Below the pieces are notes generated by a model. It worked only from the letters and a program-made list of their open reading frames with translations, did not search any database and had not been told where the DNA came from. Source: Alphaproteobacteria bacterium (GTDB taxonomy: Bacteria > Pseudomonadota > Alphaproteobacteria > Rhodospirillales > 2-02-FULL-58-16). Taken from it: DNA of 35,464 nt. Shown here piece by piece: positions 19,409 to 33,622 of this stretch; position 1 is the stretch's first letter; each line of letters begins with the position of its first letter. The stretch lies in NCBI GenBank assembly GCA_024278615.1, contig JAJRSS010000198.1, positions 5,001 to 40,464 of the forward strand, read 5' to 3'. The translations under genes and the position numbers were made by a program.

Positions 19409-19963
19409 TTAGCTGCCCGCTGCCCGGGTTACGGTGGTCACCCCCCGGCGGTTTTGCGCCCAGGCTTGCTCGTTGGAGCCGAGCGCCACGGGGCGTTCCT
19501 TGCCGTAGGATATGGTTTTTATCCGGCCCGGGCTAATGCCCAAGGCGACCAGATAATCCTTGACCGAGTTGGCCCGGCGATCGCCAAGGCCCAGGTTGTA
19601 TTCCCGGGTGCCCCGTTCATCCGCATGGCCTTCAATCATCACCGTTACCGAGGGATACCGTTTCAGCCAAGCGGCCTGTTTTTCCAGCACGCTGCGGGCT
19701 TCCCCGGTCAGGTTGTACTTGTCGAAACCAAAGAAAACACGATCCCCCACGTTGACCACAAGGTCCTCCTGGGAACCCGCTTGCGGCCCCTGGGGCTGCG
19801 GCGCCACCGTCGCGGAGGAGGTCGTTGAGGAGGAGGTCGTGGTTGAAGAAGTTGAAGAGGTGGAAGCCCCGGTGCCGCTGCTGGCGGCGCTCTGCTCGGG
19901 AGCTGTTTCGCAGGCGGCGACGAAGGCGAATGCCACCACCATGCTGATTAACTTAAGGCGCAT
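19409..19963 (-). CDS. pal: Peptidoglycan-associated lipoprotein Pal
   Basis: The 184-residue outer-membrane lipoprotein has a signal with lipobox VAAC (Cys18), then a Ser/Thr-rich linker (about 25-55) and a C-terminal OmpA-like domain that binds peptidoglycan: VFFGFDKYNLTGEA, then IEGHADERGTREYNLGLGDRRA with the diaminopimelate-binding Asp and Arg. Pal cycles between peptidoglycan and TolB to hold the outer membrane during constriction. GAGGAG lies 9 nt before ATG 19963. A 175-bp AT-rich gap separates it from tolB, so pal may also have its own promoter; I could not pick one confidently. Confidence 0.97.
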   Translation of the reverse strand: MRLKLISMVVAFAFVAACETAPEQSAASSGTGASTSSTSSTTTSSSTTSSATVAPQPQGPQAGSQEDLVVNVGDRVFFGFDKYNLTGEARSVLEKQAAWLKRYPSVTVMIEGHADERGTREYNLGLGDRRANSVKDYLVALGISPGRIKTISYGKERPVALGSNEQAWAQNRRGVTTVTRAAGS

Positions 19964-20138
19964 TTAATAAATCTCCTCATGGCCATAGCCTTTGACTCGA
20001 TACAACATTCGCTGGGTAAACAGCAACGACTATTCAATTTCCCTGCAAAGCATGTTTGGTTTTGTCTTTGAAAAAAAACTAAAAATTTCACAAAATTGCT
20101 AATAACCCTTTTAGATACTGAACTATATGCCGCCCTGT

Positions 20139-28869: not shown

Positions 28870-29025
28870 TGTCCTGGTCGGGGGTTAGGGATGAATAAGG
28901 GGACGGCGCCGCAATGGTCGTCGACCGATGGATCCTCTGTGGCCTGCTGTTGCAGGTGGGCGCCATATACCGAGCCCACGAGCCCGGCAGGGACAGCTCC
29001 CTAGAGGTTGATTGGCCCCAGGGAT
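28870..29025 (-). ncRNA. ssrS: Probable 6S RNA
   Basis: No frame is convincing here, and the stretch lies between zapA and the 5-formyl-THF cyclo-ligase gene, the standard location of 6S RNA in proteobacteria. The strand is minus. The 5' side has CCCTGGGGC (29023-29015) and CTAGGGAGCTGTCCCTG; the 3' side has CAACAGCAGGCCACAGAGG and ends near CCAGG (28877-28873), which can pair with the 5' CCTGG to close the stem. Length is about 156 nt. 6S RNA mimics an open promoter, binds sigma-70 RNA polymerase and lowers its activity in stationary phase. Both ends are estimates. Confidence 0.75.
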
Positions 29026-29066
29026 ACGTAGCCAAACGCGCCCCGCAGCAACCGTCTTGGGTGAAT

Positions 29067-29777: not shown

Positions 29778-29929
29778 CCGTGGCGGGGCATCAGGTCAAT
29801 ACCCCCCGGCATTACCCCGCTTCCCACACGATCGGGTATGGGCGCGCGACCCCAGGGGGGTGTTAACCTGACGTTAAACGGTGTGATAGGATAAGAAACA
29901 GCATCCACAATTTTTATATGGAGATTTGA

Positions 29930-30934
29930 ATGTCGGTACGGGTAGGTATTAATGGTTTTGGCCGCATTGGCCGATTGGCTTTCCGGGCGCTCATCGAATC
30001 CGGCCGCGACGATATCGAAGTGGTGGCGATCAATGACCTGGGCTCGGTGGAAGCCAATGCTCATCTGCTGAGGTACGATTCCGTCCACGGCATTCTGCCC
30101 GGCGAGGTAACCGTCGACGGGGACACCATGGACGCCGGCCGCGGCCCGATGAAAGTGACCGCCGAACGGGAGCCGGCCAATCTGCCCTGGGGCGAATTGG
30201 GTGTTGATATCGTCTATGAAAGCACCGGCATCTTCAACGACCGGGCCAAGGCCGCCCTGCACCTCGAAGCGGGGGCCAAAAAGGTCCTGATATCGGCTCC
30301 GGCCAAGGACGTCGACCTTACGGTGGTGTACGGGGTCAATCACGACAAGCTGACCGCCGACCACACGGTGGGTTCCAACGCGTCGTGCACCACCAACTGT
30401 CTGGCCCCGGTGGCCGACGTTCTCAACAAGACCGTCGGTATCGAAAAGGGTTTCATGACCACGATTCACTCCTTCACCGGCGACCAGCGCACCGTGGATA
30501 CCCTGCACCGCGACCTGCGCCGGGCGCGGGCGGCATCCGTGTCCATGATCCCCGCTTCCACCGGCGCCGCCAAGGCCGTGGGCCTGGTGCTGCCCGAATT
30601 GCAGGGCAAGCTGGACGGCACCGCTGTCCGGGTGCCGACACCCAACGTATCCATGATCGACCTGACCTTCGTCGCCGGCCGGGACACCACGGTGGATGAG
30701 ATCAACCAGGCCTGCCGGGCGGCGGCGGAAGGCCCGCTGAAGGGAGTTCTGGGTTACGTAACGGCGCCGCTGGTATCGGTGGACTTCAACCACAACGCCT
30801 TCAGTTCCAGCTTCGACGCCACCCAGACCCAGGTTGTGGGCGGCAATTTCGTCCGCATCCTGGCCTGGTACGACAATGAATGGGGTTTCTCCAACCGCAT
30901 GTCCGATACGGCGCTGGCCATGTATAACGCCTAG
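29930..30934 (+). CDS. gap: Type I glyceraldehyde-3-phosphate dehydrogenase
   Basis: The 334-residue enzyme oxidises glyceraldehyde-3-P to 1,3-bisphosphoglycerate. The Rossmann start is [11 protein letters not shown], the adenosine-ribose Asp is in AINDL (residue 36), the catalytic pair is C153 in SNASCTTNC and H180 in [10 protein letters not shown], and [12 protein letters not shown] closes the protein. The Asp favours NAD over NADP. GGAG lies about 7 nt before ATG 29930. The gene stands alone, divergent from the zapA genes and convergent with trcR, not with pgk or fba, so a second, gluconeogenic-type gap or an erythrose-4-P dehydrogenase role cannot be excluded. A long 7-bp inverted repeat (ACCCCCC 29801-29807, GGGGGGT 29855-29861) is in the upstream gap. 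Confidence 0.95.
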
Positions 30935-32938: not shown

Positions 32939-33118
32939 ATGGATATCGAGGAGCTGGAACCCAAGAAAAAACAAGAGGTTAAGAACCTGGATGTGATGTC
33001 CATCGAAGCCCTGGGCGAGTACATCGCTGAATTGGAGGCGGAAATCGCCCGGGTACGGGAAACAATAAGGGAAAAGGAAGTCGCCCGGCAAAGCGCAGAT
33101 TCCGTATTCAAAAAATAA
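32939..33118 (+). CDS. Small DUF1192 protein
   Basis: A 59-residue, highly charged protein: MDIEELEPKKKQE, then MSIEALGEYIAELEAEIARVRE and a Lys-ending tail. The middle matches the alphaproteobacterial DUF1192 family, a short coiled-coil protein of unknown function. The start follows AACGGGAGC, a fair ribosome site. It is divergent from the quinone oxidoreductase (83 bp between starts). Confidence 0.85.
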   Translation: MDIEELEPKKKQEVKNLDVMSIEALGEYIAELEAEIARVRETIREKEVARQSADSVFKK

Positions 33119-33200
33119 AAACGTTAGGATTTACCGAAAAATGCCTGTATTCGCCTTGGTTCAGAGGTATTGAAAAGGAGCTTTTTTATTAATTATTTTT

Positions 33201-33323
33201 TAATACTTTCCCATTAGGTTGGTTGGTGAATGGGACATCGTTGATTAGCTCAACGTCTCGTTCCATTCACTTTGATGCCTCCCTGTTAAACTCCAGCCGT
33301 CTCTTCGGAGGCGGCTTTTTTTT
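33201..33323 (+). ncRNA. Candidate structured small RNA
   Basis: Within the 504-nt gene-free stretch 33119-33622, TAATAC (33201-33206) could be a -10 box, with transcription from about 33212. The RNA would hold a long hairpin: GTGAATGG (33226-33233) pairs with CCATTCAC, with inner CGTTGA/TCAACG. A single-stranded segment GCCTCCCTGTTAAACTCC with anti-Shine-Dalgarno-like CUCC motifs follows, then a strong UUCG terminator. It contains no good frame. It may be a free sRNA or the 3' UTR of the DUF1192 mRNA, whose stop is 177 bp before the terminator. No known RNA family is recognised. The 5' end is a guess. Confidence 0.5.
33295..33323 (+). terminator. Strong UUCG rho-independent terminator
   Basis: AGCCGTCTC (33295-33303), tetraloop TTCG, GAGGCGGCT (33308-33316), then T to 33323. 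The 9-bp stem has one G-U pair and eight T follow in total. It ends the DUF1192 transcript and/or the candidate sRNA. Confidence 0.9.
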
Positions 33324-33414
33324 GGCCACAAGGCCCCTTGACCCACTGCGACCGCTTTCTGTAAAGTCCCATGCCATCAAAGAACCGTGGGCGAGTTTGA
33401 CAGGTTAGAGGCAT

Positions 33415-33450
33415 AATAAAAATGGGGGTTGCCGGTAAACGGCGGCCCCC
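33415..33450 (-). terminator. Terminator hairpin downstream of the adenylate cyclase
   Basis: GGGGGTTGCCG (33424-33434) pairs with CGGCGGCCCCC (33440-33450) around GTAAA, 11 bp with two G-U pairs. On the minus strand it is followed by ATTTTTATTAT, so it most likely ends the cyclase transcript 170 bp past its stop. The rest of 33324-33622 shows only a weak plus-strand promoter-like pair, TTGACC/TGTAAA at 33338-33365, and no gene. Confidence 0.75.
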
Positions 33451-33622
33451 AAAATTCTTTCCCCCCGGATTTCAGCCAAGCACCGGCCATAAATCAAATC
33501 CCCGGTCCATCCGGTCGGCATGTGAACCATTGATGTAATTTCGCCGTCTCCCCGCATTTAAGAATCCGGGATAAAGCCCCGGGGGCCCCCTTCACAAGGG
33601 TGGCCAGCGCCGGAAGTGGGGT

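Follow-up and report, generated by a model that had tools for sequence, protein, structure and literature searches.

The window, by which we mean the whole stretch of 35,464 nucleotides that was analysed, carries a putative small RNA (sRNA) gene on the forward strand, adjoined upstream by a DUF1192 gene of the same orientation and followed by a convergent cyclase gene (Table 1). A CtrA box and a −10-like element precede the sRNA, the predicted start of which coincides with the foot of its 5′ hairpin. Another strong hairpin, TGGGGGTTGCCGGTAAACGGCGGCCCCCA, is located at 33423–33451, between the sRNA and the cyclase gene, and was picked up by the terminator scan. Elsewhere in the window, Rfam identifies a 6S RNA on the minus strand (28902–29054, 52.8 bits).

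Table 1. Features of the sRNA locus and its upstream neighbour
Feature	Position	Strand	Evidence
DUF1192 gene (59 aa), conserved upstream neighbour	32939–33118	+	Pfam PF06698, 57.3 bits (cutoff 25.5)
CtrA box TTAATTATTTTTTAA (TTAA-N7-TTAA)	33189–33203	+	Exact match; position and spacing conserved in relatives
−10-like element TAGGTT	33215–33220	+	+26 to +31 from box start; weak match in own copy
Predicted sRNA, about 98 nt	33226–33323	+	Box/−10 geometry, hairpin foot, terminator; predicted start 33226–33229
5′ nested hairpin (45 nt)	33226–33270	+	Folding, covariation
Core UUUGAU-GCCUCCCU-GUUAAA	33271–33290	+	Single-stranded or weak hairpin, anti-Shine-Dalgarno motif in loop
Anti-Shine-Dalgarno motif GCCTCCCTGTT, proposed seed	33277–33287	+	Near-invariant among relatives
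Intrinsic terminator, UUCG loop and T-run	33295–33323	+	Sequence, terminator pattern scan, kept pairs

The sRNA can be divided into a 5′ hairpin domain, a core, and a terminator. As read from the sequence, the outer stem of the 5′ domain is formed by GTGAATGG (33226–33233) and CCATTCAC (33263–33270), with CGTTGA/TCAACG nested inside. The segment TTTGATGCCTCCCTGTTAAACTCC (33271–33294) follows directly on the 3′ side, and UUUGAUGCCUCCCUGUUAAACUCC separates the nested hairpin from the terminator, in which AGCCGTCTC and GAGGCGGCT enclose the TTCG loop (33295–33316) ahead of the T run. The 161-nt region folds with −53.1 kcal/mol, compared to −32.4 kcal/mol in dinucleotide shuffles (z −5.98, 0 of 200), and the 5′ hairpin by itself has a z-score of −4.1. 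The structure of the opposite strand is weaker (z −3.7) and lacks the T-run. In the ensemble, the CCUCCCU of the exposed segment GCCUCCCUGUU is about 95% unpaired. The terminator was picked up independently by a pattern scan, which finds such sites equally often in shuffles. The nested hairpin with its UUCG terminator (z −6 against shuffles) and the unpaired CUCC-bearing segment, both put forward in the original prediction, are thus present; the span of 33201–33323 given there was right in place but started slightly early, as position 33201 lies inside the CtrA box, which had escaped notice in that prediction.

The fold is retained in relatives, where the 5′ domain has a z-score below −1.5 in 54 of 65 cases. 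Base pairs were counted on CM-fitted alignments; a MAFFT alignment (A3) had the inner hairpins out of register. In the alignment of 16 distinct sequences, which is fitted to the structure and leans towards it by construction, both sides have changed in 14 of the 28 pairs, and the cells with such double changes number 49; shuffles give 19.4 (0 of 500) and slid controls 5–12. When the ten closest relatives are aligned in the same manner, seven pairs and 18 cells are changed on both sides, and the pairs of the terminator are kept at 98–99% in the CM-fitted alignments. The model CM R1 scores the copy from the window, one of its own members, at 74.5 bits. The absence of conserved pairing in relatives had been named as the observation that would speak against an sRNA; the pairs are instead conserved and covarying. 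The hairpin, exposed core, terminator, and covarying pairs together indicate that the locus is almost certainly a discrete sRNA gene, arranged as predicted.

Orthologs were found in GTDB relatives of the same taxonomic family, and the pattern CCTCCCTGTTAAACT followed by a terminator was matched by 50 of the 297 genomes searched in the order; the reversed pattern has none among the matches listed. Comparison of the relatives identifies 33271–33290 as the most strongly conserved sequence of the family. The relatives fall into two classes. Those of class I, to which the copy in the window belongs, have one hairpin domain at the 5′ end, and in most of them the core reads TTTGA[CT]GCCTCCCTGTT. Class II paralogs of the order (ACGTGAAG-CCTCCCTGTTAAACTCGCCGGG, for example at L003 and L021) have the 3′ core in common with class I but differ in their several hairpins, some of which carry CUCCC or CCCCC loops, and in their CGCCGGG terminator. 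After profile refinement, a DUF1192 gene is located upstream on the same strand in 46 of 56 class I loci that were found without the use of the box, versus 0 of 32 in class II. Class II relatives are spread through the order (L017–L026, L034, L044, L061–L063). On one contig (G000:C40, 8551–9083; L003 1505 and 1985), a pair of class II copies of the 3′ core is packed into 480 nt; several hairpins there present CUCCC or C-rich loops, and a CtrA box is absent. Class I copies are also duplicated (L120 84 and 284; L199; G297:C110 and C124), and in two of these pairs each copy has its own CtrA box, which suggests repeated expansion of the sRNA.

The sequence TTAA-N7-TTAA is the CtrA motif (PMC12403871), and in Caulobacter CtrA boxes have been predicted upstream of ncRNAs (PMC5988900). 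A ctrA gene was identified in the genome at 413 bits (cutoff 350). The exact box is present in 40 of the 58 class I relatives that were fetched without it, and at least seven of its eight letters in 54; control spacings of 4–6 and 8–10 give 0–1 exact boxes, shuffles average 0.46, and class II has 0 of 30. The same box is recovered when DUF1192 is used as the only anchor: within 420 nt around and behind the stops of 30 DUF1192 genes of the order, selected by neither RNA nor box, the exact N7 box occurs in 19 regions, and none is found at spacings of 4, 5, 6, 8, 9, or 10. The module pattern is present in 21 of these regions, one of which (L316) is a spurious palindrome. Seventeen of the 20 genuine regions contain the exact box and 19 at least seven of eight letters, mostly 70–94 nt before the module; in two further regions (L313, L326) the module follows the box, yet lies beyond the pattern or the stretch searched. 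When about 85,000 genomes were scanned for the box together with the module, at least 80 named records and at least 118 stretches were obtained; all names listed are alphaproteobacterial, and they include Mesorhizobium, Brucella, Bosea, Devosia, Thalassospira, and Sneathiella. In a sample of the class, 15 of 385 genomes have both box and module, against 1 for the reversed control. The CCTCCC part of the search pattern resembles any Shine-Dalgarno complement. Three copies of the Thalassospira group and several of the Bradyrhizobium type retain boxes of only 7/8 or 6/8 letters.

Alignment of 140 relatives on the box reveals a rise of T-A-T at positions 26–28 and of T at 31, which corresponds to a −10-like element starting 11 nt after the box. 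From this geometry, the box covers the −35 position, and the 140 relatives contain no other conserved −35 element. A conserved TTAA-N7-TTAA near −35 is what is expected of a CtrA promoter, and the sRNA is very probably under CtrA control. A sigma-70 site at 33170–33199 from a simple scan is at chance level (two found, 1.0 expected) and is not the conserved element. The window has three exact boxes, versus 0.05 expected from shuffles. One of the other two (29863–29877) precedes a GAPDH-like gene (29930–30934, +) by 53 nt, and the third (19953–19967) is at the start of a gene for an OmpA-like/Pal-like lipoprotein (19409–19963, −).

The box tests fix the site of control and not its sign. CtrA can also repress, and a box over −35 could block the polymerase, in which case the RNA would accumulate when CtrA is inactive. 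We consider such repression unlikely, because a box ending 11 nt before the −10 element is the typical geometry of CtrA-activated promoters and no alternative −35 is conserved. It is still less likely that the RNA is a processed 3′ untranslated region of the DUF1192 mRNA without a promoter of its own, which had been offered as a second reading of the locus. In favour of this reading, DUF1192 directly precedes the sRNA on the same strand, an arrangement that is widespread among relatives, and neither reading of the sequence nor the terminator scan detected a terminator between the DUF1192 stop and the sRNA. However, the strict-N7 box and the −10-like element, conserved across orders at a fixed distance, are positioned between the gene and the RNA. 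Moreover, records of Mesorhizobium and Brucella/Ochrobactrum (L133, L136, L169, L206, L210) keep the box and the sRNA with no DUF1192 gene detected upstream, so the promoter and the RNA can travel without this neighbour.

The core of the sRNA is complementary to AACAGGGAGGC, which is Shine-Dalgarno-like. SisA, an alphaR8 sRNA of Caulobacter, pairs through a similar core upstream of start codons and represses transporters, TonB-dependent receptors among them (PMC12559287). Perfect 10-nt complements before an ATG occur at 26 places in ten genomes of the family; five of these places are antisense to sRNAs of the family, and the frames behind the remaining ones include TRAP DctP, ABC, and TAXI-type binding proteins. 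In the genome of the window, the frames include those of DctP (in two near-identical copies) and of an ABC binding protein, together with a cyclase-family protein that is secreted and an aldehyde:ferredoxin oxidoreductase. The predicted duplexes between the sRNA and ribosome-binding sites have energies of −19 to −26 kcal/mol. Solute-binding proteins account for 7 of 20 frames, two of the seven being near-identical copies, versus 2 of 19 with a control ribosome-binding site of the same G-rich part (p ~0.07); this enrichment is suggestive only, and a transporter-rich regulon can be proposed tentatively. The masking of ribosome-binding sites that had been predicted agrees with a core that is exposed and near-invariant in relatives, and repression through the anti-Shine-Dalgarno motif is quite probable.

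A decoy or sponge that binds other sRNAs rather than regulating mRNAs would be a different use of the same core. Sponging of an anti-Shine-Dalgarno sRNA family is documented, as by CrfA for SisA-D (PMC12559287), and the genome has paralogs with the same core; nevertheless, this role is very improbable, since the core is anti-Shine-Dalgarno like that of SisA and not G/A-rich like that of CrfA, and the paralogs carry the same sense sequence, which prevents mutual pairing through it. A small protein gene is hardly credible: a 61-aa frame with a TTG start (33223–33408) is the only listed frame of at least 60 codons spanning the sRNA, but it crosses the terminator, indels in relatives break any frame, and the changes follow base pairing.

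A trans-acting, probably Hfq-dependent, CtrA-controlled sRNA with an anti-Shine-Dalgarno core is therefore the best overall reading of the locus, and a likely one. Judged by sequence only, the RNA has the attributes of an Hfq-type sRNA, namely its own promoter, an exposed seed, and an intrinsic terminator with a U-tail. CtrA would bind TTAA-N7-TTAA over the −35 position and drive the synthesis of the roughly 98-nt sRNA from its own promoter. The 5′ hairpin may protect the RNA, whereas the terminator and U-tail would end it and could serve as the Hfq site. The GCCUCCCUGUU core would pair with AACAGGGAGGC-like ribosome-binding sites and reduce translation of those mRNAs; the solute-binding proteins of TRAP and ABC transporters are among the likely targets. 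When CtrA is active, the sRNA would thus be made and selected mRNAs with a matching ribosome-binding site silenced; those with AACAGGGAGG at this site are predicted to go down.

In alphaproteobacteria, CtrA is the central regulator of cell cycle and motility and is known to act mainly through transcription. Anti-Shine-Dalgarno sRNAs as such are already known. Through an sRNA that is widely conserved and carries a CtrA box, CtrA would gain a general means of shutting down translation in trans. It is conceivable, though somewhat doubtful, that many alphaproteobacteria share one ancestral CtrA-driven anti-Shine-Dalgarno sRNA beside DUF1192, through which active CtrA silences nutrient-uptake proteins; if so, the CtrA regulon would have a post-transcriptional arm that had not been recognised before. 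The presence of the family in the tractable genera Thalassospira, Mesorhizobium, Devosia, and Bosea makes the idea directly testable.

Rfam returns no match at the sRNA locus at the gathering score. Matches below threshold to STnc100, OmrA-B, SorY, and others are mainly terminator-like or of low complexity. EcpR1 and GspR are Sinorhizobium sRNAs with links to the CtrA circuit of the cell cycle, and gspR has no known promoter signature (PMC4414408, PMC5928217). The sRNA was identified with neither of the two: both act on cell-cycle mRNAs, EcpR1 uses UCCGCCGCAUCU, and the core found here is reported for neither.

The alphaR8/MmgR/SisA-D sRNAs resemble the sRNA in that a 5′ hairpin and an intrinsic terminator flank a single-stranded CCUCCCU anti-Shine-Dalgarno core, and in the presence of multiple copies per genome (PMC12559287). 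Membership in alphaR8/MmgR (RF00519, suhB) was rejected at 24.6 bits versus a cutoff of 41, and the 10-mer UUUCCUCCCU that defines these RNAs (PMC12559287) is not matched by AUGCCUCCCU in the window. Their neighbour is the FGase gene instead of DUF1192, and the sisA-D promoters have no common motif, in contrast to the CtrA box here (PMC12559287). The two families coexist in two genomes (G005 and G007), and CCTCCCT was not found in three RF00519 match regions (L083, L087, L098). The sRNA and alphaR8/MmgR/SisA are of the same mechanistic type.

The best relaxed match is to BjrC1505 (RF02356), with 34.1 bits and an E-value of 8.7e-05, below the gathering score of 50. The model matches 30 of 289 genomes of the class, and in the genome of the window this locus is its sole match. 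The sRNA and BjrC1505 have in common the 3′ core GACGCCUCCCUGUU, the type of terminator, the position of the 5′ hairpin, and the DUF1192 neighbour. The core UUUGACGCCUCCCUGUU with a GCCGC-type terminator of BjrC1505 corresponds to UUUGAUGCCUCCCUGUU with GCCGUC in the window. The sRNA also shares its genomic place with BjrC1505 loci that pass the cutoff: L103, L105, L106, L107, L110, L113, and L114, among them the high-scoring L103 and L106, are positioned behind DUF1192. This synteny identifies the RNA as a diverged BjrC1505 ortholog despite its failing the Rfam cutoff, so that, of the claim that neither a protein frame nor a known family explains the locus, only the part on the frame holds. 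Unlike BjrC1505 with its two small hairpins, the sRNA has a single nested one, and it differs further in its exact CtrA box. The start of the Rfam model lies around the box, and the promoter region is included in the model; if the 5′ end of BjrC1505 was mapped experimentally, the box would fall within the RNA there. The literature searched, partial in its coverage, contains neither a functional study of BjrC1505 nor a report linking BjrC1505-like sRNAs to CtrA, and BjrC1505 gains CtrA as a likely regulator. On sequence grounds, the RNA is a local, diverged copy of a class-wide sRNA family, the nearest described relative of which is BjrC1505.
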